Assembly: GCA_026987255.1 (NCBI GenBank)
Contig: JALSNA010000304.1
Location: 1-10,129 of the forward strand
Reading direction: 5' to 3'
Source of the DNA: Hyphomicrobiales bacterium
GTDB taxonomy: Bacteria > Pseudomonadota > Alphaproteobacteria > Rhizobiales > Aestuariivirgaceae
Length of the DNA stretch: 10,129 nucleotides
Part shown: in pieces, positions 1-10,129 of the stretch
Layout: each line of letters begins with the position of its first letter
Position numbering within the stretch: the first letter of the stretch is position 1
Program-made: the position numbers and the translations under genes
Notes under the pieces: generated by a model
What the model saw: only the letters and a program-made list of their open reading frames with translations
Database searches by the model: none
Told to the model about the DNA's origin: nothing

Positions 1-344
1 TCAGGTTCCGGCTCCGGCTCCGGCTTCACTTCCGGTTCGGGGGCAATGTTCTGTTCTTGCTGCTCCTCGCGCAACAAGCGGGCGGCCTCGGCCATCTTGA
101 CCAGCGGCGGCGGCTCCATGGCCATCTGCGGTTCCGGTTCGCCTTCGATATCACCCTGGATCTTTTCCTCGATGACCGGTGTGACCTCCAGGTTCATACT
201 GATGGAAGCCACGTCGCTTTCGATCACTCCGGCATGGCGGGCGTTGTTTAGCAAGACAAGAAAGCCCCCATGCAAAATCAGCACGACAAGGAAAATCGAG
301 CTCTCGCGCAACAGCAGCAGCAGTTTTTGCCTCCATCCGGACAT
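1..344 (-). CDS. tonB: Energy-transducer TonB, N-terminal part (cut by window edge)
   Basis: TonB spans the periplasm and passes the energy of the ExbB/ExbD motor to outer-membrane receptors. The visible 114 residues show a short basic cytoplasmic start (MSGWRQK), one membrane helix at about residues 14-33 with a His at 25 (compare the functional His in the TonB transmembrane helix), then a periplasmic stretch. The last part becomes rich in Pro and Glu (PEPEVKPEPEPEP at residues 102-114), which is typical of the TonB spacer. The C-terminal receptor-binding domain lies beyond the window. The ATG at 344 is 10 nt after the stop of the preceding exbD gene, and the Shine-Dalgarno AAGGGG overlaps that stop codon (TAAGGGG). 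Position after exbB-exbD-exbD supports the call. The family call is firm; the C-terminal type is unseen. Confidence 0.82.
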   Translation of the reverse strand, partial: MSGWRQKLLLLLRESSIFLVVLILHGGFLVLLNNARHAGVIESDVASISMNLEVTPVIEEKIQGDIEGEPEPQMAMEPPPLVKMAEAARLLREEQQEQNIAPEPEVKPEPEPEP

Positions 345-354
345 TGAAAGCCCC

Positions 355-783
355 TTACTTGCGCCGCACGGCGATGAGTTGCACATGGGTGATTCCGGCA
401 TCGGACAGCCGTTTCAGCAAAGGCAGGACAGTGCCCGTCCTGGCCGCCCGGTCGGCCTTCAGGCGCACTTGCAGGTTTTGCGCGCCCATGTTCTTCAGGC
501 GCGTGACAACGGCATCCATGGCCAGCCGCTCATCTGCGAGCGCCATATCTCCGTCACGGCCAATGAGCACAACCGGCCCGTCATCGGCCAACGCAGAGCC
601 CGCGGGGGCTTCGGGCGGCTCCACGTCGAACAGCTCGGCGGCGCGGAATGTGCCAGCTATCATGAAGAAGGTAAGCAGCAGGAAAACGATGTTGATCATC
701 GGGATCAGGCGGTCGTTCTGATCCGGCTCGCGCTGGCCGGGCAGAAGATCGCCTGCACCAGCAGGGTCAAATGGATTGCTCAT
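355..783 (-). CDS. exbD: Second ExbD/TolR-type biopolymer transport protein (Asn variant)
   Basis: This 142-residue ExbD/TolR family protein is a stator-associated, single-helix component of the proton-driven motor that energises TonB. A short cytoplasmic N-terminus leads into one membrane helix (RLIPMINIVFLLLTFFMIAG, residues 25-44), then a periplasmic ExbD domain to the C-terminus. The position normally held by the proton-carrying Asp of the motif PLID is Asn31 here (PMIN). The neighbouring ExbD keeps the Asp. The ATG at 783 overlaps the preceding exbD stop by 4 nt (ATGA), indicating translational coupling. It probably works with the other ExbD in one complex, as in systems with paired ExbD proteins. 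Family assignment is strong; the role of the Asn form is inferred. Confidence 0.88.
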   Translation of the reverse strand: MSNPFDPAGAGDLLPGQREPDQNDRLIPMINIVFLLLTFFMIAGTFRAAELFDVEPPEAPAGSALADDGPVVLIGRDGDMALADERLAMDAVVTRLKNMGAQNLQVRLKADRAARTGTVLPLLKRLSDAGITHVQLIAVRRK

Positions 784-1325
784 TGCCTGATCTCCTGGCC
801 CGCCGGTGGCTCCAGGTGCGGCTCTTGCGTCCGTTCCCCGGCCTGACCGGTCTCATGCATGACGATCTGCACCCTGAAGCCGGGAAGCACCTTCAGGGCG
901 TTCATGACATCGATGAGCAGTTGCACCGACACGTCGTCATCCGGATCGACCATCAGCAGGGGCGCATCGTCCTTGTCCCCATGTCCCTGGTGATGGGCCA
1001 GCACGCCGGTGAAGCTCTCCAAGGTGCCGATTTCCTCATCATCCAGAAGAATAACGCCATCGGCATGAATGGTCAGGCGCAGTTTTTTGGTCCCTCTGGC
1101 AATGGCCGGCAAAGCGGGCGGTGGCGTCATGGCCTTCAGGGGTGTCTTGCGCACGCTGATGTCCACTGGCGTGAAGCGGTCGAACTGGGTGACGACCATG
1201 AAGAAGATCAGCAGGATGAAGGTGAAGTCGATCAGCGGCGCCATGGACAGCACGGAACGGCGGCGGCGGCCCTCCAGGGCAAAGGCCGCCGGCCGCCGCA
1301 TGGTTTTTGCGTCGCGATGCGCCAT
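780..1325 (-). CDS. exbD: ExbD/TolR-type biopolymer transport protein
   Basis: This 181-residue ExbD family protein works in the proton-motive-force motor with ExbB and TonB. It has a basic cytoplasmic segment (residues 1-27 with an RRRR run), then a membrane helix containing the canonical MAPLIDFTFILLIFFMVV (residues 28-45). Asp33 matches the essential membrane Asp of ExbD/TolR. A periplasmic domain follows, ending in a Pro/Glu/Gln-rich tail of about 24 residues that is longer than in the adjacent paralogue. The start at 1325 is 2 nt after the exbB stop at 1328-1330, and the G-rich Shine-Dalgarno (GGGGGTAGG) includes that stop codon. The 3' end overlaps the next exbD by 4 nt. Confidence 0.9.
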   Translation of the reverse strand: MAHRDAKTMRRPAAFALEGRRRRSVLSMAPLIDFTFILLIFFMVVTQFDRFTPVDISVRKTPLKAMTPPPALPAIARGTKKLRLTIHADGVILLDDEEIGTLESFTGVLAHHQGHGDKDDAPLLMVDPDDDVSVQLLIDVMNALKVLPGFRVQIVMHETGQAGERTQEPHLEPPAGQEIRQ

Positions 1326-1327
1326 GC

Positions 1328-1993
1328 CTACCCCCGCTCCAGGGCGTCGTCACGGCCGCCGTCATAGACCCGCGCGAGAAAGCGCGCCACCGTAACGGAG
1401 GCAAACTGGCGCAGCTTGTCCAGCTTGTTCTGCGCCATGTTGAAGGCGACGATGGCCGGAATGGCCACCACCAGCCCCATGGCGGTGGTCAGCAGAGCTT
1501 CCCAGATGCCGCCGGCCAGCACCGCCGGATCGGCCTTCGATCCGGATGTCTGCAATGCCTGGAAGGCCGAAATCATGCCCAGGATCGTGCCCAGAAGCCC
1601 CAGCAGGGGGGCAATCAGGCCGATCAGTTCCAAGAGGCGGTCATTGCGAGACAGGCGAATCATCTCGCGGCTGGCAATGGCGCGGATTTCCGCCTCCACA
1701 GCCTCACGCCCTTCTCCGGCCATGATGCGCTGTGCCCCGGCCCGCAGCATGCGCGCCACCGGATGGCGGGACGGTCCCAGGGCGGCAAGGGCTGCTTCCA
1801 CCCCCCCTTCGTCGAGAGCGGCAAGCGCCTCTTCTATGCGCCGCGTGCTGCCCAGGCGGGCAAAGAGGAAGATGAAGATCTTGCTGATGATCAAGGTCAG
1901 TGACAGAACTGACATGAGCGCCAGGATTGCGCCGGCCGGGCCGATGTAGTTGTAAATCTTGATGAGGGTATCGCTGTCCAGGCTTGTGTTCAT
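1328..1993 (-). CDS. exbB: ExbB/TolQ/MotA family proton-channel protein
   Basis: This 221-residue inner-membrane protein forms the pentameric channel around ExbD and converts proton flow into work on TonB. An N-terminal helix lies at about residues 17-45. A cytoplasmic loop follows (about 46-120, alpha-helical, charged). The two conserved C-terminal helices come next: LIAPLLGLLGTILGMISAF (about 126-144) and GIWEALLTTAMGLVVAIPAI (about 162-181). These carry the Gly-rich and TTAxG signatures of the MotA/TolQ/ExbB family. Length is close to typical ExbB. It lies 27 nt after the CcdA-like gene, with a weak AAAGG Shine-Dalgarno, and is followed directly by two exbD genes and tonB. This argues for ExbB rather than TolQ. 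Confidence 0.93.
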   Translation of the reverse strand: MNTSLDSDTLIKIYNYIGPAGAILALMSVLSLTLIISKIFIFLFARLGSTRRIEEALAALDEGGVEAALAALGPSRHPVARMLRAGAQRIMAGEGREAVEAEIRAIASREMIRLSRNDRLLELIGLIAPLLGLLGTILGMISAFQALQTSGSKADPAVLAGGIWEALLTTAMGLVVAIPAIVAFNMAQNKLDKLRQFASVTVARFLARVYDGGRDDALERG

Positions 1994-2020
1994 TGGTGCA
2001 TGCCTTTCTTGCCGTTCCTG

Positions 2021-2713
2021 TCAGGACAAAATGAGCCGCAGGCCGAAGAGAGCCAGAATCAGGCCGCTCAGCCTTTGCAGATGTGGCGCATGTCTGGGAA
2101 TCTCCTGGCGGATGCGGGTTGCCAGCCAGCCGGTGGCGCCACCGATGTAATAAAGCGGAGAGCCCGCCGCTCCGATGCCGAAGAGCAGTCCGTAGAGCGC
2201 CCCTTGCGCCGCCGATCCGCGGGTGGCTGCAAGCATGAGGACGGCGCTCAACGGCAGGCATGGCATCAGGGAGGTGGCCACGCCGAGCCCCAGCATGTGC
2301 AGCATGCCGCGCCCAGCCCTGCGCCGCCCATGGCTGCATGTTCCCTTGCGCGCAAAGGCCACCGCAGCGCCAATGGCCACGATGATGACCCCGGCCAGGG
2401 GCAGGACGATCCCTCCATCCAGCTGTTTCAGGAGCACTTCGCCAAAGCCGCCGGACAGAGCGCCCAGGGCGGCATAGGTCACCACCCGCGCGGTGATGAA
2501 CATGGCGGTGAGATGAAAGGCCGGCATGAAGCCGCCGCCCCGGCCGGACGCGCGCTGGGCATTGGCGAAGAGATAGGGCGCCAGCATGGGCAGACAGGAA
2601 AAGCTGCACAGTGTCAGGCCATAGAACAGCCCCATGGCCAGAATGCCGGCGTCATCGGAGCTGAACCAGCCGAGCATGGACAGCTGCTGTTCTATGGCTG
2701 GCAGGTTGCGCAT
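2021..2713 (-). CDS. CcdA/DsbD_2/TauE-SafE-like six-helix membrane protein
   Basis: This 230-residue polytopic protein has about six membrane helices, near residues 24-48, 64-90, 102-120, 140-165, 168-192 and 214-229. Helix 1 contains CSFSCLPMLAP (Cys36, Cys40) and helix 4 contains SLMPCLPL (Cys152). The paired Cys-Leu-Pro sites match the internal-repeat cysteines by which CcdA/DsbD-type proteins carry electrons across the membrane. Databases often name such proteins sulfite exporter TauE/SafE family, but the cysteines favour a thiol-redox role. The start at 2713 overlaps the 3' end of the activator gene by 22 nt, and a GGAGG sits about 10 nt upstream. A later Met (residue 13) lacks a ribosome site. 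Its placement between a reductase pair and exbB suggests it sends reducing equivalents to the periplasm, which is inferred. Confidence 0.8.
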   Translation of the reverse strand: MRNLPAIEQQLSMLGWFSSDDAGILAMGLFYGLTLCSFSCLPMLAPYLFANAQRASGRGGGFMPAFHLTAMFITARVVTYAALGALSGGFGEVLLKQLDGGIVLPLAGVIIVAIGAAVAFARKGTCSHGRRRAGRGMLHMLGLGVATSLMPCLPLSAVLMLAATRGSAAQGALYGLLFGIGAAGSPLYYIGGATGWLATRIRQEIPRHAPHLQRLSGLILALFGLRLILS

Positions 2714-3567
2714 GTCTTGAGGGCCTCCATGTCGCGTTTTGCCAGTCTTTTGGGCTCGACGATCCTTTCTCCGGTTTCATGTTCGTTGCGTGCTATGAGA
2801 GCAGCCCCTACCGCCGTTGTGACCTGGGGCACTGCCGGCGGCACGTAGAGCTCCACCGCCAGCTCGTCTTCAATGGCCTTGACCAGCCCCTTGTTGAGCG
2901 CCGGGCCACCATCGAAGAAGACCTCCTCGACGATCCCCACCCGCCGCGCCATCCGCGCCAGACGCTTGGCAATGGCGTAATGGGCCCCGGCGATGATCTC
3001 CGAATGCTTCTTGCCGCGCGCCAGCAGGGAAATGATTTCCGATTCGGCAAAGACCGTGCAGGTGGAATTGATGCGGATGGGCACATCGGCCTGCAGGGCG
3101 ACATCGCCGATATCGGTCAGGTTCAGTTCCAGGATGCGCGCCAGGGTCTCCAGGAAACGCCCGGTGCCTGCGGCGCACTTGTCATTCATGGAAAAATTCT
3201 TGGTGACGCCATTTTCATCCAGGGCAATGACCTTGCTGTCCTGCCCGCCGATATTGACCACGGTGCGCACCGACACTCCGGCCTTGCGTCCATACCAGAC
3301 AGCCCCCTTCACATTGGCGGTGATTTCCGAAATGGTGGATGTGGCGAAGCTGACCAGGCGGCGGCCATAACCGGTGGTGGTCACCCCTTTCAGATTGTCA
3401 CGGCCCAGACCGAGATCCGCCAGCAGTTCTTCCAGCAGGGCGGTGGATGTCTGCTCGATATGCACCCCGGTGGTGGTTACCTTGTGGCCGAGGATCTCGT
3501 CCCCGGAGACGATGGCCACCTTGGTGGTGGCCGATCCTATGTCGATGCCCGCGAAACAGGTTGTCAT
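2692..3567 (-). CDS. ATP-dependent [4Fe-4S] activator/reductase (BadF/BadG/BcrA/HgdC family)
   Basis: This 291-residue ASKHA-fold ATPase is of the kind that drives electrons to very low potential onto a partner Fe-S enzyme. Visible motifs are the phosphate-1 loop DIGSATTK (residues 9-16), phosphate-2 NIGGQDSK (105-112), CAAGTGRFLE (131-140), NSTCTVFAESE (167-177) and the adenosine-site DGGPALNKGL (219-228). Cys131 and Cys170 correspond to the two cysteines that, one pair per subunit, hold the dimer-bridging [4Fe-4S] cluster in HgdC-type activators. An extra CxxC (Cys286/Cys289) ends the protein. It begins 12 nt after the double-cubane-like gene, with Shine-Dalgarno AGGGGA overlapping that stop codon. 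Adjacency makes it the reductase for that protein, like the DCCP/DCCP-R pair. Family assignment is firm; the partner is inferred from position. Confidence 0.93.
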   Translation of the reverse strand: MTTCFAGIDIGSATTKVAIVSGDEILGHKVTTTGVHIEQTSTALLEELLADLGLGRDNLKGVTTTGYGRRLVSFATSTISEITANVKGAVWYGRKAGVSVRTVVNIGGQDSKVIALDENGVTKNFSMNDKCAAGTGRFLETLARILELNLTDIGDVALQADVPIRINSTCTVFAESEIISLLARGKKHSEIIAGAHYAIAKRLARMARRVGIVEEVFFDGGPALNKGLVKAIEDELAVELYVPPAVPQVTTAVGAALIARNEHETGERIVEPKRLAKRDMEALKTCATCQP

Positions 3568-3579
3568 GAATGCGTTCCC

Positions 3580-4899
3580 CTAATTGCGTCCCTTGAGGGT
3601 TTCCTGGAAGGCCTCGATGCGCGTGCGCAGTTGCTCCACGTCCTCGGGGCTGTAGTCGGTTTCGATCTTGAGCATGGGCACGCCCTTCTCCTGCAGCAGC
3701 TTCTCGATGATCTTCAGCTCGATATCGAAGGGATGGCAGCCCTTGAGAACATGATAGATCACGCCCTCCACCTGGTATTCATCTACCAGCCTGGCGATGC
3801 GGTCGCGCCGCTCGATGGTGTTGGAAAAGGTCGGGCAGGCGCAGGGCAGAACGTAACGCTCGGCAATGGCCATGAGCATGTCGCCCATGGTGCCTTCGTC
3901 CACGCTCACCATGTCGGAGAGATAGCGTTGTGACGTGCAAAACTCGTCACATACCAGGATGCCACCCAGATCCTCGATGACGAATGGCACCTTCCAGTTG
4001 GGGAACACCATCGGCGAACCGGTGAGCATGATGCGCGCCGCCCGCGGGGGTGCCACGTGGATGCCCTGCGCGATGCGCTCTTCCAGCTCGTCGTTGAGCG
4101 TTGCCAGAGCATCTGTCCAGTCATTCACTTCGTCGTAGAAATAAGCATTGAGAACCTCCAGGGCATCGCGGCCCAGAATGGGCGCCGGATTGTGCTTGCG
4201 CAGCTCCTGGAAGCGCACCACTTCCCGCTGTGCCCGCTGGATGCGGCGGATGGCGTCGCGCAGGGCCTTGCGGCGGATCTTGCGTCCGGTGATCTTCTCC
4301 ACACGCTTTTGAAAGCGCTTCACCTCTTCCAGCCAGTAGTCGCGCGCCTTTTCCGATTCCTTCACGCGCGGCACGTCGAGCATGTGCACATCGTCGAAAG
4401 GCTCCAGCATCTCGCCCATCTTCAGCTTCCAGTGACAGCTGGCCGGCAGGGCCACCATGTCACAGCGCTGGTAGAAGTCGAGAATGGGCATGGAGGCGAA
4501 ACCCATTTCGGATTTCACCATCGGACAGGCCACGTCGGGCAGGAAGTCCTCGCCGATTTCCGAAGTGTCGTGGGCCCCGGCGCACAGCCGCACCGGATAG
4601 CCCCCGGCGGCATAGACGATCTCCTCCGGGACGAAGACGCAATAGGTACCGATCACCTTCTGATCTTCCGCCGCCTTGATGACACCCTCGCCATTGTGCA
4701 TGAACTTGCGGAAGATGTCGTCGAAATAGGCCATGGCCTTCGGGCGTAGCTCGTCCTTTTCCACCTCCTCGAAGATCTCGCGCACAGTCATGGCCAGGTG
4801 CAAGCGCACCTTGTTGACAAGACGCTCCTGCCGCGAGAGTTTCCGGCCCCCCTCTGCGCCGGACGGATTCATGTGTTCCGGTGGCATCTCGTTCATCAT
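3580..4899 (-). CDS. Double-cubane-cluster-type protein (YjiM/HgdB-like, 2-hydroxyacyl-CoA dehydratase family)
   Basis: This 439-residue cytoplasmic protein is of the HgdB/FldC family (2-hydroxyacyl-CoA dehydratase component D). It has ten cysteines, including GTYCVFVPEEIVYAAGG (Cys87), RLC (106), DVACPMVKSEMGF (125), ASCHWKLKMGEML (155), CDEFC (317/321), CAC (353/355) and KGCHP (388). This arrangement resembles YjiM and the double-cubane-cluster protein DCCP, in which one polypeptide with an ATP-dependent activator reduces small molecules. True hydroxyacyl-CoA dehydratases need two different subunits and a CoA-ligase or transferase context, which is absent here. The ATG at 4899 overlaps the upstream stop (ATGA), with AGGAG 6 nt before it; a second Met codon follows at once. 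A Lys/Arg-rich helical insert spans about 180-235. The substrate is unknown. Confidence 0.85.
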   Translation of the reverse strand: MMNEMPPEHMNPSGAEGGRKLSRQERLVNKVRLHLAMTVREIFEEVEKDELRPKAMAYFDDIFRKFMHNGEGVIKAAEDQKVIGTYCVFVPEEIVYAAGGYPVRLCAGAHDTSEIGEDFLPDVACPMVKSEMGFASMPILDFYQRCDMVALPASCHWKLKMGEMLEPFDDVHMLDVPRVKESEKARDYWLEEVKRFQKRVEKITGRKIRRKALRDAIRRIQRAQREVVRFQELRKHNPAPILGRDALEVLNAYFYDEVNDWTDALATLNDELEERIAQGIHVAPPRAARIMLTGSPMVFPNWKVPFVIEDLGGILVCDEFCTSQRYLSDMVSVDEGTMGDMLMAIAERYVLPCACPTFSNTIERRDRIARLVDEYQVEGVIYHVLKGCHPFDIELKIIEKLLQEKGVPMLKIETDYSPEDVEQLRTRIEAFQETLKGRN

Positions 4900-5864
4900 T
4901 TCTTTCTCCTTTTCGTGGCAGCCGCTTTGCCGCCGGTGGCCGCTTCCTGGCGGGCCAGGAAGGCCTCGGCGTCGGCCTTCAGGAAGGAGAAGCCCGCGAA
5001 TTGCGCTTCAAGCGCCCGATTCTCCGGGCAGGCCTCGACACACCGCAGGCACAGGATGCAATCCTGCGTGACCAGATTCTTCAGGCCCTTCTCTTCCTCG
5101 ATCTCGCGGATCTCCATCGGGCAGGCGCGGTAGCAGTTGCCGCAGCGGGTGCACTTGCTGCCGTCCTTCTTCAGTGAGAACAGCCCCACCTTGTCGAACA
5201 GTGACAGGAAGGCGAGCATGGGGCAGTAGGAGCACAGGAAACGGCGCTTTACGAAGGAGGTGGTGAACATCAATCCCACCAGGACAATGGCCCCGCCGGT
5301 GAGCGCCATGGTGGGCAGGGAGAAGAAATTGATGGCGAACTGGGTGGTGTCGCCCCGGAACAGCGGCAGCAGGGGCCGCGCCGGGCACAGCTGGCAATAA
5401 GGCGCCGTCCAGTCACGCGAGATCAGCCCGTTGCCGATGCCCAACGGGATCAGCACCAGCAGCGCCAGCAGGATGTATTTCACAGACTTGTAGCGTTTCC
5501 TGGCCACCCAGGAAAAGCGCGACATGTCGATAGACAGCCAGGTGCGCAATCTTGTCAGCAGGTCCTGAAGGAGGCCGATGGGGCAGATCCACCCACACCA
5601 GGCCTTGTTGATCACAATGGCCCACAGGGCGGCAATCCCGAGCGCCTTGAGCAGGCGGATGCCCTGTTCGCCGAGGAACTCCGGCAGGGGCCGCGAAAGC
5701 ATGTGCTGAAAACCCACCAGGAAACAGCCGCCGCCATGATCGGGCACATAGGAGCATGCGAAAGTGGGCAGCCGGTTGCCCAGATCTATGGCGAACAATC
5801 CGCCATAGATGAGCACCACGAAAGAGATGAACTGGACAACCAGCCGGATGCGCTGAACATTCAT
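4896..5864 (-). CDS. NapH/NosR/RdxA-like membrane 4Fe-4S polyferredoxin
   Basis: This 322-residue inner-membrane electron carrier has helices near residues 8-26, 72-88, 129-147 and 184-204. Between them are cytoplasm-facing Cys pairs typical of the NapH/NosR/CcoG group: CGWICP (90-95), CQLCP (157-161) and CSYCP (211-215). A soluble C-terminal domain carries two classical clusters, CTRCGNCYRACP (238-249) and CILCLRCVEACP (269-280), each predicted to bind [4Fe-4S]. Two further cysteines (37, 47) lie in the first extramembrane loop. The tail is Lys/Arg-rich. The chosen ATG at 5864 is 1 nt after the upstream stop, with GGAAGAGGA ahead. A longer reading frame upstream only shadows the neighbouring gene. 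Coupling to the double-cubane gene by a 4-nt overlap suggests it supplies electrons there. Confidence 0.88.
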   Translation of the reverse strand: MNVQRIRLVVQFISFVVLIYGGLFAIDLGNRLPTFACSYVPDHGGGCFLVGFQHMLSRPLPEFLGEQGIRLLKALGIAALWAIVINKAWCGWICPIGLLQDLLTRLRTWLSIDMSRFSWVARKRYKSVKYILLALLVLIPLGIGNGLISRDWTAPYCQLCPARPLLPLFRGDTTQFAINFFSLPTMALTGGAIVLVGLMFTTSFVKRRFLCSYCPMLAFLSLFDKVGLFSLKKDGSKCTRCGNCYRACPMEIREIEEEKGLKNLVTQDCILCLRCVEACPENRALEAQFAGFSFLKADAEAFLARQEAATGGKAAATKRRKK

Positions 5865-5865
5865 G

Positions 5866-7041
5866 TCATGCGGTCCTCTTCCTGCGGCGGCGCGAGCGGC
5901 GGATGGCGATGGCCGCGCCGGCGGCGACAATGGTGAAGGAGCCGAGAATGAAGGCCGTGCTCTTGCTTTCCCACTCGCGCCGCGAGGGCCGCACGCGCAA
6001 CATGGCAGTGGCCACGTAGCGCACAGCTGTGCCGTTTTCGGCATGTGCCTTGCCCGGCGGCTCCATGTGGCTGGCAATAAGCAGATATTTTTCCGCCCGC
6101 CGGCGGCCGCGCCAGGTGGAAGGTGTGGGAGATTCCTTTATGAGGAAAAAGGCCGCCTCGCCCTTTTCGTCTGTCACCGCTGTCTTGCGCCAGTCCTTCT
6201 GGGTGATCATCACCAGGCAGGCGCCCTTCACCGGCTTGCCGCGCAGGGTCAGGCGGAAGCGCACCGTCTCGCCGGTGCGGGCGGAGAAACGGGCCCGGTC
6301 ATTCTCGTATAGACGGCGCAGGAAGAACTCCGGCTCGCCTTTCCAGTAGCCATTGCCCTCGATCATGGGGCGATCCTTCTTCGAGACTTCGTCGCCATGG
6401 CTGAACATGTCGTAGAAGGCGAAATACCTGCGCCGCAGGCCGTCCCCGGTCTCGCTGTCGAGAAAGGCAAAGATGCGATGCAATCCCCACATGCGGGCAT
6501 TGAACCGCATGATGCCGGGTTTTTTCGGATCGATGCGGTGGATGAGATTGTCCGGCGTCTCCAGCCAGATGGCGGCCCGCCCGAGCAAGGCATCCGCTTT
6601 GCCCTGCCGCCTGTTGCGGCGCATGGCCCGGCGCTCCAGGGATGGGTGCGCTCTCTTGTCCATGGCCTTGTGGCTCCTGGCGCCGCAGGTGGGGCATCCG
6701 CCACCGTTGCGAGGCGGGAAACCATCATGGCGAAGCCGCAATATGCGCATGCGGCGATTGACCACCAGCCGCGCGCCCTGTCCGCCAGCGGTGGAATGGG
6801 CATCATTGCCGGGAGTTCTTTGCATGCCCATGCCCATGCGTGAGAAGTCAAGCCAGTAGAAATCCCTGGCCACGGGACGGCACCGGCGCGGCCCCTTGTG
6901 GCGGACGGGCCGGGCCATGGGGCGGGACGCAATGTCCCGCCCGCCCGTCATGGCTCCGGCCCCATGAGTCTCTTGCACGGCCAGCACCGGATGAACACCG
7001 GCGCAAAGCGCGATGGCAAGTGTGAGGAAAATGCGTTTCAT
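5866..7041 (-). CDS. Exported, C-terminally anchored protein with DUF4198-like domain
   Basis: This 391-residue protein has a clear signal peptide (MKRIFLTLAIALCAGVHPVLA, cleaved after about residue 21). An Arg/Met-rich region of uncertain fold follows, with GGGCPTCG (Cys116/Cys119). A C-terminal beta-type domain at about 255-350 (GETVRFRLTLRGKPVKGACL, then a TDEKGEAAFFL strand) resembles DUF4198/NikM-like or transthyretin-like folds. It ends in one membrane helix (about 362-380) and a strongly basic tail. It should lie in the periplasm, anchored to the inner membrane by its C-terminus. I chose the ATG at 7041 because TAGGAG, which contains the receptor stop codon, sits just upstream and the signal peptide follows. 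An earlier in-frame ATG at 7122 would lie inside the receptor gene. No function is known to me; a ligand- or metal-handling role with the receptor is inferred. Confidence 0.72.
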   Translation of the reverse strand: MKRIFLTLAIALCAGVHPVLAVQETHGAGAMTGGRDIASRPMARPVRHKGPRRCRPVARDFYWLDFSRMGMGMQRTPGNDAHSTAGGQGARLVVNRRMRILRLRHDGFPPRNGGGCPTCGARSHKAMDKRAHPSLERRAMRRNRRQGKADALLGRAAIWLETPDNLIHRIDPKKPGIMRFNARMWGLHRIFAFLDSETGDGLRRRYFAFYDMFSHGDEVSKKDRPMIEGNGYWKGEPEFFLRRLYENDRARFSARTGETVRFRLTLRGKPVKGACLVMITQKDWRKTAVTDEKGEAAFFLIKESPTPSTWRGRRRAEKYLLIASHMEPPGKAHAENGTAVRYVATAMLRVRPSRREWESKSTAFILGSFTIVAAGAAIAIRRSRRRRKRTA

Positions 7042-7051
7042 GGCATTTCTC

Positions 7052-9103
7052 CTAGAAAGTGGCCGTGATGGTGATGCCGGCAGCCCATGAACGCGGCAAC
7101 CCGGGGCGATAGGAGCGTTCATACCGGTGGCGGCGGGAGTTGTAGCGGTAGCTGACCCTGTCGGCGTATTTCCTGTTGGTCAGATTGCGGATCTGACCCC
7201 AGAAAGTGACCATTCCGTTCCATTTGTAGCTGGCGCTGAGGTGGAACAGATCCGGCCGCTTGTAGGTGTCCGTATTGCGCTCGTCGGTAAAATATTTCGA
7301 CGTGTGATCCCACTCCAGCTCCAGTTTCGTGTCCTCCAGGGGCTTGAGGATGAAGCGGGCATTGAGATGATGTTTGGGCGCGGCATACATGTAGTTGCCG
7401 CTGACATCGACGCCGTTTCCATTGGTATAGGAGACATACTTGTCGATGGCATAGGTATAGGAGGCCTCCACACCGGCCCACTTCACCGGCCACAGGCCGG
7501 CTTGCGCCTCCAGCCCCTTCAGGCGCACCTTGCTGGCATTGCGGTACTGATAGACATCATCGCCGTTGCCGTCGGTATAGAGATATTCCCTGGCGATGAA
7601 ATCCTTGATCGTCGTATGGTGCCACGACAGATCGTAAACGATCCTGTCATCCAAAAGTCCGCCGCGCGCGCCAATCTCGAAGTTAACGGCCTGCTCCGGC
7701 TTGAGATCGGGATTGTCCAGATAGACGCTGCCCCGGCCATCCGAAGGCCACATGCGCGAAGGGCTGGGTGCGCTGAAGCCCTGGCTGTAGGAGAACCAGA
7801 GGCTGTTCTTGTCATTCCATTGCCAGGTCACGCCCGTATGTGGCGTGAACTTCGAAAAGCTCTTCTTGCCGTTGTTGGTGGCGTCCCTGAAGTCGGTATA
7901 GTCATACTTCGTGTACTCGTAGCGCCCTCCGGCGGTGAATTTCAGTCCCTCCAGCCATTGCGTTTCCTTGAAGGGCGAGAATTCATATTGCCCATAGGGA
8001 GATGCGATATATGCCAGGGCATCGGAGCGGCCAATTCGCTCACTGTCGGAATGGGACAGATCGGCACCGGTGATGAGCTTCGAATCCCAGAAATCGAAAT
8101 TGCGCGTATAGCGCGGCTTCAGATCGTGCCGGTCCGTGAGATTGTCGCCCCACCGGCCAGTGCTCTTTTCATGCACGTAGCCATAGGAGAGCTCGATCTT
8201 GCCGCCCATATCCAGCTGGTGTTTCGCCCTGGCGTCCAGATAGGTGGATTTCGTGGTGCTGGAATAGGGCCGGTTGGTCAGCCCCCACCAGGTGTTCCAC
8301 TGGTTTTCGGTGAGATTGCCGGGGCTTTCGTCATGATGTTTCGTGTGGGTGATGCCGAATTCGAAAGCGGTCCGGGCCGTGGGATCCCATGTGGCGCGGG
8401 CACTGGTGGTATCCTTTTTCTCCCCGCGCCAGGTGCTCCAGCCATCCAGCTCGTAATGGGAGGCATTGGCCTTGAAGCCGAGCTGCCCGATCTGCTCACC
8501 GAAAATGGTGGCGTCCTCGATGGTGAACCCGAAATCACCGCCAAATCTGTAACGGTTCCAGGAGCCGAAATCGGCAAAGGTGCGCAAGGTGGGCCGCTTG
8601 GGCGGTTTCCTGGTGATGATGTTGATCACGCCGCCGAAGGCATGGGACGGATAGAGCGCCGAGGCTGGCCCCTTGATGATCTCGATGCTGCCGATATCGA
8701 AATTGTTGGCGGTGTCAAAATTGAAGTTGCCCCGCCCCAAAGGCCGCGTGGCCATGCCGTTTTGCAGATTGACGGTATAATCACACCATCCGCAAGGCAC
8801 GCGCAGGTTGCGCACATTGGTCATGCCGGGCACGCGGGTCATGAGCTCGTAGCGGGTATTGGTGTAGTTGACCGTGTCCAGATTGAACCGCTCCGGGGTG
8901 ATGAGCGTCACATTGACCGGCGCCGTCAGCAAGGACTGGCCCCCCATGACGGTCACATCCGGGTTGACGAAATTTTTGGTGTTGAAGTTGGTCTTGACGA
9001 CGATTTCTTCCAAGGCCGTCTCGGCCAGCGCGCCGCTGGCGCACATCCCCAGGCTCAGCAGGCAAGCCGCCAGGCTGGTGGACGCAAGCAGAATCCGTTT
9101 CAT
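7052..9103 (-). CDS. TonB-dependent outer-membrane receptor
   Basis: This 683-residue receptor actively imports a ligand across the outer membrane. It has a signal peptide (MKRILLASTSLAACLLSLG.., cleaved near residue 27), then a TonB-box-like LEEIVVK (31-37). The plug domain is about 50-170, with IEIIKGPASALYPSHAFGGV (140-159) and INIITRKPP, typical of plug ends. A 22-strand barrel follows, with alternating aromatic strands and a terminal Phe (ITITATF), needed for outer-membrane assembly. A CGWC motif (104-107) inside the plug is unusual. The ATG at 9103 is preferred over the frame start at 9163 because the signal peptide begins there and a GGGGCGG ribosome site lies upstream. Ligand class cannot be read from sequence; siderophore, corrinoid or metal chelate are all possible. 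Confidence 0.95.
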   Translation of the reverse strand: MKRILLASTSLAACLLSLGMCASGALAETALEEIVVKTNFNTKNFVNPDVTVMGGQSLLTAPVNVTLITPERFNLDTVNYTNTRYELMTRVPGMTNVRNLRVPCGWCDYTVNLQNGMATRPLGRGNFNFDTANNFDIGSIEIIKGPASALYPSHAFGGVINIITRKPPKRPTLRTFADFGSWNRYRFGGDFGFTIEDATIFGEQIGQLGFKANASHYELDGWSTWRGEKKDTTSARATWDPTARTAFEFGITHTKHHDESPGNLTENQWNTWWGLTNRPYSSTTKSTYLDARAKHQLDMGGKIELSYGYVHEKSTGRWGDNLTDRHDLKPRYTRNFDFWDSKLITGADLSHSDSERIGRSDALAYIASPYGQYEFSPFKETQWLEGLKFTAGGRYEYTKYDYTDFRDATNNGKKSFSKFTPHTGVTWQWNDKNSLWFSYSQGFSAPSPSRMWPSDGRGSVYLDNPDLKPEQAVNFEIGARGGLLDDRIVYDLSWHHTTIKDFIAREYLYTDGNGDDVYQYRNASKVRLKGLEAQAGLWPVKWAGVEASYTYAIDKYVSYTNGNGVDVSGNYMYAAPKHHLNARFILKPLEDTKLELEWDHTSKYFTDERNTDTYKRPDLFHLSASYKWNGMVTFWGQIRNLTNRKYADRVSYRYNSRRHRYERSYRPGLPRSWAAGITITATF

Positions 9104-9325
9104 GAATCCGCCCCTTGTTTTCTCTGTTTGATGCCATGAGTGTTGCCGCAAGGCGCACTCCATGCGTCATCCGTCATCCACGGGATTCGATGCGAGAACG
9201 GAAAACGGACATGGAGTGATGAGGAGCCTGTTGCGGTCTTTTTCCTGCAAGCCGCCGCGCGGCAAAAATCCATCCGCTCAAATCAGGCAGGCGCAGGCAT
9301 GGAAAAAGAGCGCGATGGCTCCCTT
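9104..9325. other. 222-bp intergenic leader upstream of the receptor gene
   Basis: No credible coding frame is seen. The stretch holds the hairpin just after the DUF2946-like gene (9303-9326) and a small GC palindrome at 9251-9263. It also holds a perfect 9-bp inverted repeat with a 45-nt spacer (9156-9164 and 9210-9218) and the receptor ribosome site at about 9107-9114. I saw no convincing -35/-10 pair on the minus strand and no B12-box (GCCACTG) or other riboswitch core that I recognise. It is long compared with the other gaps in this operon, so it may hold post-transcriptional control of the receptor. Confidence 0.5.
9156..9218 (-). repeat. 9-bp perfect inverted repeat in receptor leader
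   Basis: CACTCCATG at 9156-9164 and CATGGAGTG at 9210-9218 are perfect reverse complements separated by 45 nt. In the minus-strand transcript they would form a stem closing a large loop about 50 nt before the receptor start codon. The loop contains a tandem CGTCATC repeat on the plus strand (9165-9178). A 9-bp match over this distance could occur by chance, so function is uncertain. Confidence 0.35.
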
Positions 9326-9326
9326 T
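9303..9326 (-). terminator. Candidate intrinsic terminator or attenuator after DUF2946-like gene
   Basis: Read on the minus strand, AAAGGGAGC pairs with GCTCTTTTT around a CATCGC loop: four GC-containing pairs, two G-U pairs, then three A-U pairs. The T-run sits at the 3' side, and the hairpin begins at the last base of the DUF2946-like stop codon. The stem is weak, so it may only reduce read-through into the receptor gene or protect the 3' end. Confidence 0.35.
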
Positions 9327-9718
9327 CAGTCAGCGCTGGGCGGTGCGCGTATGGGAGCGGGAACGAATACGGCCAGCGCCGGAGGCACATATCCGGCCTG
9401 TGGCGTGGTGGTCCAGCCCACGATGAACGAGGGGACCGGAGCCGGGACATCGATGCCCGGCAGGGATAGCTTCAGATTGTGCACCGAGCACACGGGACAA
9501 TCAGCCGGTTTCGTCTGCTTCACCGGAGATTCCTTGCCGGTGGTCAACTGGAGCACCTTGACGCCCCAGGCGGTGCAGATGACGAGGGAATCGAAGCCGC
9601 CCTCCCGGTCACGATCGACGGGAATGGCCTGCGCAGCGGGAATCAGCGCCTGAAAGATCAGCGCAAACAGCGCCAATCCCAAGGCCAGGTCCCTTATCCG
9701 CTCGCGAAAAAACCTCAT
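9326..9718 (-). CDS. Small exported DUF2946-like protein
   Basis: This 130-residue protein has an N-terminal signal or anchor segment (RERIRDLALGLALFALIFQALIPAAQA, shown by its hydrophobic core at about 11-31). The body has SLVICTAWGVKVL (Cys49) and DCPVCSVH (Cys74, Cys77, His80), and a Pro-rich tail. The ICTxxG plus CPVC pattern is that of DUF2946 proteins, a family of small secreted proteins often found near metal or TonB uptake genes. The CxxCxxH group looks like a metal- or thiol-active site, but no biochemical role is established to my knowledge. The ATG at 9718 follows a GGAGAGG ribosome site. An earlier ATG at 9769 gives a Cys-rich extension before the signal segment and is less likely. 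It is the first gene after the FNR-like site. Confidence 0.75.
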   Translation of the reverse strand: MRFFRERIRDLALGLALFALIFQALIPAAQAIPVDRDREGGFDSLVICTAWGVKVLQLTTGKESPVKQTKPADCPVCSVHNLKLSLPGIDVPAPVPSFIVGWTTTPQAGYVPPALAVFVPAPIRAPPSAD

Positions 9719-9835
9719 ATCCTCTCCGGCAGCGCAGGCACGGCAGGAAAACCCGCCACGAGCCCGCAATCCTTCCCCATCAACGCGCCCCTCACGACGG
9801 CCTTGTTGTTATTGCGCCATCACAATCCGCATATC

Positions 9836-9841
9836 ATCAAA
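9836..9841 (-). promoter_or_regulatory. Possible -10 element for FNR-activated promoter
   Basis: On the minus strand this hexamer reads TTTGAT, matching four of six bases of TATAAT. Its centre lies 32 bp downstream of the FNR-like site centre. That is the spacing expected when FNR binds at -41.5 (class II). Transcription would then start near 9829, leaving about 110 nt before the first gene. An overlapping alternative is TGATAT at 9831-9836. No good -35 is needed at such promoters. Confidence 0.35.
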
Positions 9842-9860
9842 CCACATCCTTCATCAAGAT

Positions 9861-9880
9861 TCATTGACAAAGATCAATGA
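9861..9880 (-). promoter_or_regulatory. FNR/FixK/Anr-type binding site
   Basis: The core at 9864-9877 reads TTGAC-AAAG-ATCAA. This fits the TTGA(C/T)-N4-(A/G)TCAA consensus of Crp/FNR-family oxygen-responsive regulators with both half-sites intact. The symmetry extends further: TCATTGA at 9861-9867 and TCAATGA at 9874-9880 form a perfect 7-bp inverted repeat around 6 bp. It lies about 146 bp upstream of the first gene's start codon and 42 bp upstream of a plausible transcription start. It fits anaerobic induction of an operon whose Fe-S reductase components are typically oxygen-sensitive. A Dnr/NnrR-type or Crp-type reader is also possible. Confidence 0.65.
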
Positions 9881-10051
9881 CGCCCCGCGCGGTGGCATTG
9901 GTGTCCAAGAACCGTTCTCAAAAGTGTTTTTCTCATGCGGCAGCCTCCCAGAGGTTCAGCTGGGATGAAACGGGAGGGGGGATGGCGGGAGATGGGGGGT
10001 TGTGGGTCTACGCCCTAGGGTCAGGACTCATAAAGAGGGATGGCAGATGCA

Positions 10052-10068
10052 GGATTTAGGCAAAATCC
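10052..10068. repeat. Small hairpin beside the long right-edge hairpin
   Basis: GGATTT at 10052-10057 and AAATCC at 10063-10068 form a 6-bp stem with a five-base AGGCA loop. Its 3' arm shares two bases with the start of the adjacent long hairpin, so the two could compete in RNA. No function is assigned. Confidence 0.4.
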
Positions 10069-10129
10069 CAGTGTCTTTTCGTCCGCAGGCAATACCCGAA
10101 GGTATTGGCAAGGGCGAAAAGGCTCTGGG
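10067..10129. repeat. Long imperfect hairpin at window end
   Basis: There are three nested stems: CCCAGTGT (10067-10074) with GCTCTGGG (10122-10129, one mismatch and one G-U), CTTTTCG (10075-10081) with CGAAAAG (10115-10121, perfect), and CAATACC (10090-10096) with GGTATTG (10101-10107, perfect). The middle stems are separated by an asymmetric internal loop (8 nt and 7 nt). The apical loop is CGAA on the plus strand and C(TTCG)G, a very stable tetraloop, on the minus strand. It could be a structured RNA, part of an upstream gene's terminator, or a mobile-element end. The window ends exactly at its base, so its extent is unknown. Confidence 0.6.

Follow-up and report, generated by a model that had tools for sequence, protein, structure and literature searches.

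Double-cubane-cluster proteins (DCCPs) and their reductases are soluble pairs (PDB 7yyl, 6eno). Such a pair reduces acetylene, hydrazine or azide, and the biological function of DCCPs was called unknown in 2025 (PMC11971306). In BzdN, a relative, the double cubane has turned from an active site into a cofactor for electron transfer or storage (PMC11971306). In Bordetella pertussis, the leader CruR heads a copper-repressed operon (CruR-BfrG-Bp2921) with a TonB-dependent receptor and a PepSY reductase (PMC9426467). PepSY-like and NapH-like systems for extracytosolic electron transfer have a transmembrane electron carrier, which in the PepSY-like ones is frequently accompanied by a secreted DUF4198 protein and in some cases by a TonB receptor (PMC8238504), and the Hmu heme system of Bacteroidota joins a TonB receptor to anaerobic metal release and, as its authors draw it, Fe(II) import by FeoB (PMC12583661). 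Here we describe a gene run from an uncultured alphaproteobacterium of the Hyphomicrobiales in which a DCCP is encoded together with a TonB receptor. The window is the whole stretch analysed, 10,129 bp (contig JALSNA010000304.1, positions 1 to 10,129, assembly GCA_026987255.1; G000:C304:1-10129 in our numbering), and its genome of origin ("own genome") is a 2.5 Mb draft that is 98.8% complete. We propose, with a probability of about one half, that the genes form an uptake operon for a metal complex, most likely of copper, which is expressed when oxygen is low and copper scarce and in which an ATP-driven core frees the metal in the periplasm.

The features of the window are listed below; L numbers denote compared loci.

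9864..9877, strand not assigned: FNR/FixK-like palindrome TTGAY-N4-RTCAA, by pattern match
9326..9718, minus strand: predicted DUF2946/CruR-like leader ORF, 130 aa (Pfam, CXXC, RAPP)
9104..9325, minus strand: intergenic stretch from leader ORF to receptor, 162 bp if the receptor begins at its first ATG (9163) and 222 bp with the likely start (9103)
7052..9163, minus strand, likely start 9103: TonB-dependent receptor, 683 aa (P0121; Pfam barrel and plug, CGWC in the plug)
5866..7041, minus strand, likely start 7041: ACC, exported, C-terminally membrane-anchored protein with predicted Zcp/DUF4198 fold
4896..5864, minus strand, likely start 5864: NapH-like membrane polyferredoxin, 322 aa (Fer4_5/Fer4_10)
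3580..4899, minus strand: predicted double-cubane-cluster reductase (DCCP), 439 aa (NF040772)
2692..3567, minus strand: HgdC-type ATPase activator, 291 aa (TIGR00241, CoA_E_activ)
2021..2713, minus strand: DsbD_2/CcdA-like membrane protein, four cysteines conserved (Pfam DsbD_2, 61.5)
1328..1993, minus strand: ExbB (MotA_ExbB, 113 bits)
780..1325, minus strand: first ExbD (ExbD, 63.6 bits)
355..783, minus strand: second ExbD (ExbD, 63.8 bits)
1..344, minus strand: probable TonB, cut at the contig end (N-terminal anchor, Pro/Glu-rich stretch, synteny with L014)

A sequence-only reading of this DNA had described a gene run on one strand with overlaps or gaps of at most 27 bp. Coordinates and family scans agree with it: all the genes it named are present on the minus strand in the order it gave, the junctions from receptor to TonB are as described, and the scans back every named gene except the contig-cut TonB. 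Its gene list was correct as far as it went but did not name the DUF2946 ORF at 9326-9718, which lies inside the region it covered and is set off from the receptor by 162-222 bp rather than by a short gap. Rfam at gathering thresholds gave no match in the whole window.

Compared with the described systems, the locus shares with CruR-BfrG-Bp2921 (PMC9426467) a DUF2946 leader with CXXC and RAPP, the long intergenic stretch, the TonB receptor and a membrane reductase, but instead of a PepSY_TM reductase it has a predicted ATP-driven NapH/DCCP/HgdC set, together with its own ExbB, ExbD and TonB. A transmembrane electron carrier, a DUF4198-type protein and a TonB receptor also occur among the systems of PMC8238504; in contrast to these, a Pfam scan of the operon proteins found no FMN-binding domain, and we propose an ATP-driven reductase as the electron source. 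The terms "hydroxyglutaryl" and "BadF" are absent from the main text of PMC8238504. The succession of receptor, DUF4198-fold protein and membrane reductase resembles the arrangement that has been proposed for reductive metal uptake by PepSY systems (PMC8238504, PMC9426467). The solved DCCP pair has the same family, cysteines and HgdC-type partner as the window, whereas in the window the DCCP gene is accompanied by genes for membrane proteins and a receptor. Unlike Hmu (PMC12583661), the window operon has no dechelatase gene; in L021 and L043 the core has a CobN-like gene as a neighbour. Our searches of open-licence papers found no description of the gene set; it is real and conserved and apparently undescribed.

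The window DCCP scores 359 bits against HGD-D and 383.4 against the double_cubane profile NF040772 (curated cut-off 350). Its cysteines C87, C106, C125, C155, C321, C355 and C388 align with those of solved DCCP 7yyl (6eno was also compared) and are invariant across the 42 rows of our DCCP alignment A1. By family it is a double-cubane-cluster reductase, for which the [8Fe-9S] cluster and ATP-dependent reduction are predicted. The activator scores 257.2 against TIGR00241 (cut-off 125.4), and the cysteines of its CAAGTG and CTVFAE motifs, which we take to be the cluster ligands, align with the solved activator 4eht. Neither DCCP nor HgdC has an export signal, as judged by eye. The product of 4896..5864 is best called a NapH-like polyferredoxin rather than NapH, because its score of 83.7 is well under the TIGR02163 cut-off of 213.05; at least 23 of 26 sequences from loci below L046, and at least 46 of 48 from the other loci, share each of its 16 cysteines. 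In the DsbD_2 protein, C36, C126 and C152 are present in 58 of 58 rows and C40 in 53. As the double cubane of BzdN serves electron transfer or storage, an electron relay by the window DCCP would be plausible.

We scanned genome contigs with A1 and compared the best 80 of at least 531 confirmed stretches. These 80 loci comprise 29 Gram-negative loci, 43 from Bacillota/Actinomycetota and 8 from other lineages, including Omnitrophota and Calescamantes; the Gram-negative tally leaves out the other 51. With iterated profiles, a NapH gene close to DCCP and in the same orientation was found in 78 of 80 loci, HgdC in 76 and DsbD_2 in 66. Part of the misses are due to contig ends, while the long locus L043 has no HgdC beside DCCP and L024 no NapH. 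The conserved unit is NapH-DCCP-HgdC, usually with DsbD_2, from Proteobacteria to Clostridia. A receptor gene is found in 19 of the 29 Gram-negative loci (18 on the same strand, the L034 receptor being on the opposite one), where 0.79 would be expected from the receptor density of the same genomes. Among the ten receptor-less ones are three genomes without any PF00593 match. In all 43 Bacillota/Actinomycetota loci the receptor is absent beside the core, and since the complete Lentisphaerota chromosome of L018 carries the core with no PF00593 match, a receptor is not required for the core to occur. It is thus an addition to the reductase core. Culturable carriers of the core include Desulfobotulus alkaliphilus and, for the form that has no receptor, Acetobacterium wieringae. 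The sequence-only reading had taken receptor and reductase genes to belong together in a single system, to be given up if reductase homologues rarely sat beside receptor genes. The neighbourhood search shows that in Gram-negatives they are not rare companions; what is conserved more widely is the reductase core, and for ExbB, ExbD and TonB alike just 7 of the 29 loci have a gene within 10 kb.

Transfer of the cassette is favoured because the DCCP tree mixes phyla and because a copy lies on a plasmid of Sulfurovum mangrovi (L097, NZ_CP087125.1), together with two receptors, one of them annotated as two CDS, and an RND permease gene. This plasmid was the best match of a plasmid search (38.8% DCCP identity), YjiM-like matches on enterobacterial plasmids being more distant. 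It also encodes a second, larger 4Fe-4S protein. A close DCCP occurs in three of 11 genomes of the own genus, window included, and a search of 385 genomes of the class at E 1e-60 matched the own genome only. L013 apparently lies in own-genus genome G068 (identical NosZ place), and G453 is probably G068 as well. Counts of loci overstate the independent cases, because the tree places L041 near L042, L029 near L030, and L032, L034 and L039 near one another.

The ORF at the head of the gene run matches Pfam DUF2946 with 32.7 bits (cut-off 23.7). Its CXXC (CPVC) and RAPP motifs are 46 residues apart, RAPP lies three residues from the C-terminus, and the long intergenic stretch (162-222 bp) follows on its 3' side, as for CruR. 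The spacing is also 46 in L013 and L014 and 47 in L015, compared to 45 in B. pertussis CruR (PMC9426467). CruR senses copper via CXXC, with stalling at RAPP, and in the presence of copper lets Rho shut off the receptor and PepSY operon; operons headed by CruR are predicted copper operons (PMC9426467). A note of caution has come with its relative CutF, as modes of action vary within the family (PMC9973294). Because DUF2946 genes also adjoin zinc-regulated efflux genes (PMC4176598), copper is the likeliest but not the sole possible signal. The assignment of the leading ORF as a putative CruR-type copper sensor, with copper-type control of the operon, is well supported by sequence. The sequence-only reading contained no clue to copper, to which the leader ORF now points.

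Upstream of this ORF lies the only match to TTGAYN4RTCAA in the window (0.05 expected), presumably the type of sequence recognised by FNR-type regulators. It precedes the DUF2946 ORF in all four loci seen with such a gene, being found at the corresponding place in L013, L014 and L015. Ten of 101 loci have a match: besides these three, L036, L043, L071 and L074 have one each, not known to be at the corresponding place, and the remainder are L093, which is the window's own region, and L094/L100, from one other contig of the own genome. Oxygen-type control via a predicted FNR-like site is well supported by sequence, and the low-oxygen setting assumed earlier gains from its conservation.

The receptor matches the Pfam TonB barrel with 161 bits as well as the plug, and its AlphaFold model (pLDDT 84.8) is nearest to PqqU/YncD in the PDB, followed by FhuA/FecA. 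Of nine receptors scanned, none exceeded any family cut-off, the best scores being siderophore-like, BtuB-like or heme-like. The OprC-type copper receptor profile TIGR01778 is not among the matches listed, which cover 25 of 26 families. Heme import was considered and not retained: TonB-hemin is the best subfamily of the receptor, but with 125.5 against a cut-off of 316.85, and there is no CobN/HmuS-like gene in the operon (no search for such a gene was made elsewhere in the own genome). The plug CGWC pair was likewise dismissed as a general metal site, being found in just 12 of 29 rows of receptor alignment A3. About 114 TonB codons precede the contig end and give no family match; the probable identity as TonB is based on the N-terminal segment, the position and the syntenic full-length TonB of L014.

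ACC carries an export signal and a C-terminal membrane anchor, as judged from sequence and model, and its gene is found in 27 of the 29 Gram-negative loci. It scores 20.4 against Pfam DUF4198, below the cut-off of 34, and its model best matches Zcp with Cu, Zn and Co and a Ni-bound DUF4198 protein. By its model, ACC has a Zcp/DUF4198 fold; a role in metal handling is proposed. No relevant paper on Zcp was among the literature matches listed. In loci L046-L092, 22 NapH-like proteins are long (>560 aa) and have an N-terminal extension that matches ACC (hhalign probability 97.2, E 3.9e-11, in one comparison), so that the pairing of ACC with NapH is not bound to the receptor. In the alphaproteobacterial loci L014 and L016, ACC has His/Met-rich stretches, with 11 His/Met motifs in L016 compared to 0.78 in shuffles, the motif having been picked after looking. 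It is enriched (p ≤0.03) in 12 of 45 ACC rows, again chosen after looking (L014, L016, L019, L020, L032, L034, L039, L042 and four database proteins). As a signature of ACC this post hoc motif was rejected, since p is 0.35 for the ACC of the window.

At this point a different metal has to be weighed: release might be periplasmic just the same, with iron, nickel or cobalt as the metal (from a siderophore, heme or corrinoid) and with CruR only tuning the operon to copper. FeoB_C is matched once in the own genome and in 27 of the 29 cassette genomes, some loci have CbiM or CobN/DUF2162 genes or BtuB-like receptors (all receptors below their cut-offs), and the nearest structures of the receptor model, PqqU, FhuA and FecA, point the same way. 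Against this stand the prediction of CruR-headed operons as copper operons (PMC9426467) and the His/Met-rich ACC of L014 and L016, subject to the limits given above for that motif. We consider this alternative doubtful.

Where reduction takes place can be approached from the permeases. The own genome has one clear receptor, a second PF00593 match being weak (21.9 bits) and FadL-like by eye. No FecCD permease is matched in this 98.8% complete draft, in a search where 13 of 14 controls matched, and PepSY_TM has no match in operon or own genome (4 of 14 controls matched). Of the nine genomes with one or two receptor matches, the own genome being counted with one, five lack FecCD (the own genome, G453, G455, G456 and G474); in G454, G459 and G473 a strong FecCD match lies, by coordinates, on the contig of a non-cassette receptor, and G469 gives no reading because its cassette contig is cut. 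The cassette receptor is seemingly independent of a FecCD permease, and therefore release in the periplasm is favoured, an argument weakened by the draft state of the genomes; reduction on that side is also suggested by the core partners being membrane proteins. According to the sequence-only reading, the system imports a compound and reduces it. The link between receptor and reductase holds, but in its cytoplasmic sense the statement is unlikely to be correct. In that version the compound would reach the cytoplasm and be reduced there by DCCP, or be used for building a cofactor, while NapH would donate electrons to HgdC. The solved pair does reduce small molecules (PMC11971306), and the missing export signals of DCCP and HgdC fit. 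However, no inner-membrane importer family is recognised among the operon proteins, although transport of something by the DsbD_2 protein is still conceivable, and the core goes with the membrane proteins NapH (78 of 80 loci) and DsbD_2 (66 of 80). In addition, a quinol-linked NapH would be too weak an electron donor for HgdC, judging from redox potentials. Cytoplasmic reduction is thus unlikely.

For the periplasmic release of copper that we prefer, the gene set, the predicted leader and FNR-like site, the conserved core and the lack of FecCD and PepSY matches are read from the DNA, and the fold of ACC from a model; the direction of the electrons, the metal and the site of its release we infer. 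Low oxygen, via the FNR-like site, and copper scarcity, via the CruR-type leader, would switch the operon on. The receptor would be energised by the operon-encoded ExbB, ExbD and TonB, and the metal complex would enter the periplasm, where ACC might handle the metal next to the membrane reductase. HgdC would charge DCCP at the expense of ATP, and DCCP would hand electrons of low potential on to the NapH-like protein at its ferredoxin end in the cytosol. After crossing the membrane, these electrons would reduce the complex or its ligand so that the metal is freed, and the four-cysteine DsbD_2 protein could be a second transmembrane path for redox equivalents or metal. Tentatively, this may be generalised: ACC-NapH-DCCP-HgdC-DsbD_2 would possibly be an ATP-driven transmembrane electron pump that delivers electrons below ferredoxin potential, by way of a polyferredoxin, to extracytoplasmic metal complexes, spread by transfer among Bacteria and some Archaea and coupled to TonB receptors in Gram-negatives. 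The use of ATP by HgdC and DCCP would then resemble that of nitrogenase.

Several points weigh against a copper uptake operon of this kind. A DUF2946 gene is found in only three of the 29 Gram-negative loci in addition to the window (several contigs are cut), and the receptors of L014 and L015 lack CGWC despite the DUF2946 gene there. Clostridia have the core but neither receptor nor DUF2946, so copper is unlikely to be the substrate in all hosts. The reduction of Cu(II) should, from its redox potential, need no ATP, which leaves the low-potential driver without a reason except where the complex is very stable; to account for the ATP we favour such a stable complex or, alternatively, reduction of its ligand. 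Gaps in the draft genomes could hide a FecCD or PepSY gene. Finally, neighbouring genes point to other metals: genes for a CbiM cobalt/nickel transporter, a flavodoxin and an ABC ATPase lie downstream of the cassette in L022 (6861-10445); a CobN-like gene, DUF2162 and an ExbB-like gene lie by the cassette in L021 (13378-20711, scanned) and L043 (11078-16500, from clustering); and ECF sigma, zf-HC2 anti-sigma-like and Metal_resist-type genes, the last below cut-off, lie directly upstream in L026 (5732-7429).

Apart from the leader ORF, NosZ is a further link to copper. It is matched (PF18764) in 12 of the 29 cassette genomes, namely in 12 of 16 from two DCCP groups and in none of the 13 others (Fisher 6e-5); the groups were defined once the matches had been seen, no correction was made for kinship, and among the 12 the match of G467 is weak (41 bits). 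The groups are L013-L017 and the 11 rows L028-L030, L032, L034, L035, L037 and L039-L042. The core might accordingly serve nitrous oxide reductase, supplying electrons or copper for NosZ assembly or reactivation, and the own genome indeed has one NosZ propeller match. This match, however, lies on contig C466 and the cassette on C304, Clostridia and sulfate-reducer genomes carry the core without a NosZ match, and NosZ is also present in four of eight own-genus genomes that lack this DCCP, which belongs to the points against copper uptake as well. On these genome-wide NosZ matches, no search for nos genes having been made within the loci, we regard a service to NosZ as very unlikely. On another contig of the own genome (C366; L100:6193-7593), ABC permease-like and NosL-type lipoprotein-like ORFs were recognised by eye beside cytochrome-like genes; together with the NosZ match this suggests a split nos cluster.

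Further neighbours were noted in the compared loci. L023 (6745-7386) has a gene that clusters with CbiM, the CobN-like/DUF2162/ExbB-like neighbourhood of L021 and L043 recalls the Hmu operon, and L027 (6278-7980) has the same gene clusters as the sigma and metal set of L026. MacA/MacB-type exporter genes, found downstream of the cassette in L016 (scanned) and in L017, L026 and L027 (clustering), would fit metallophore recycling. Since the CbiM, CobN/DUF2162, MacA/MacB and sigma sets vary, the metal served by the core may differ from host to host. In most Bacillota loci (e.g. L046), a second, distant HGD-D paralogue is encoded just upstream of the NapH-like gene, and the four that were included in the tree share a long branch of their own. 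Eighteen Bacillota loci share a related protein (L050, L051, L054, L056, L057, L064, L066, L067, L071-L074, L076, L077, L081, L083, L089, L090). In the eight that were read, the N-terminus has a hydrophobic stretch and the C-terminus a CxxCxxxC...C motif, with a linker of low complexity, and the one scanned has no Pfam match; it is possibly an extracellular redox or metal site partnering the core. Thermoplasmatota loci L065 (713-3268, scanned), L082 and L088 (clustering) have WD40 and FG-GAP propeller genes upstream of the NapH-like, DCCP and HgdC genes. The two-component genes of L014 and L057 gave no family over cut-off, and two ORFs of L013 were without a match.

In summary, double-cubane reductases have no settled natural function, and a conserved set of partners with a predicted copper-sensor ORF heading four of the loci turns this into a testable question: is ATP-driven low-potential chemistry used for extracytoplasmic metal acquisition? 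If so, this could link DCCPs to the supply of trace metals for anaerobic respiration, as for NosZ, and could represent a form of reductive uptake that needs no FecCD-type ABC permease.

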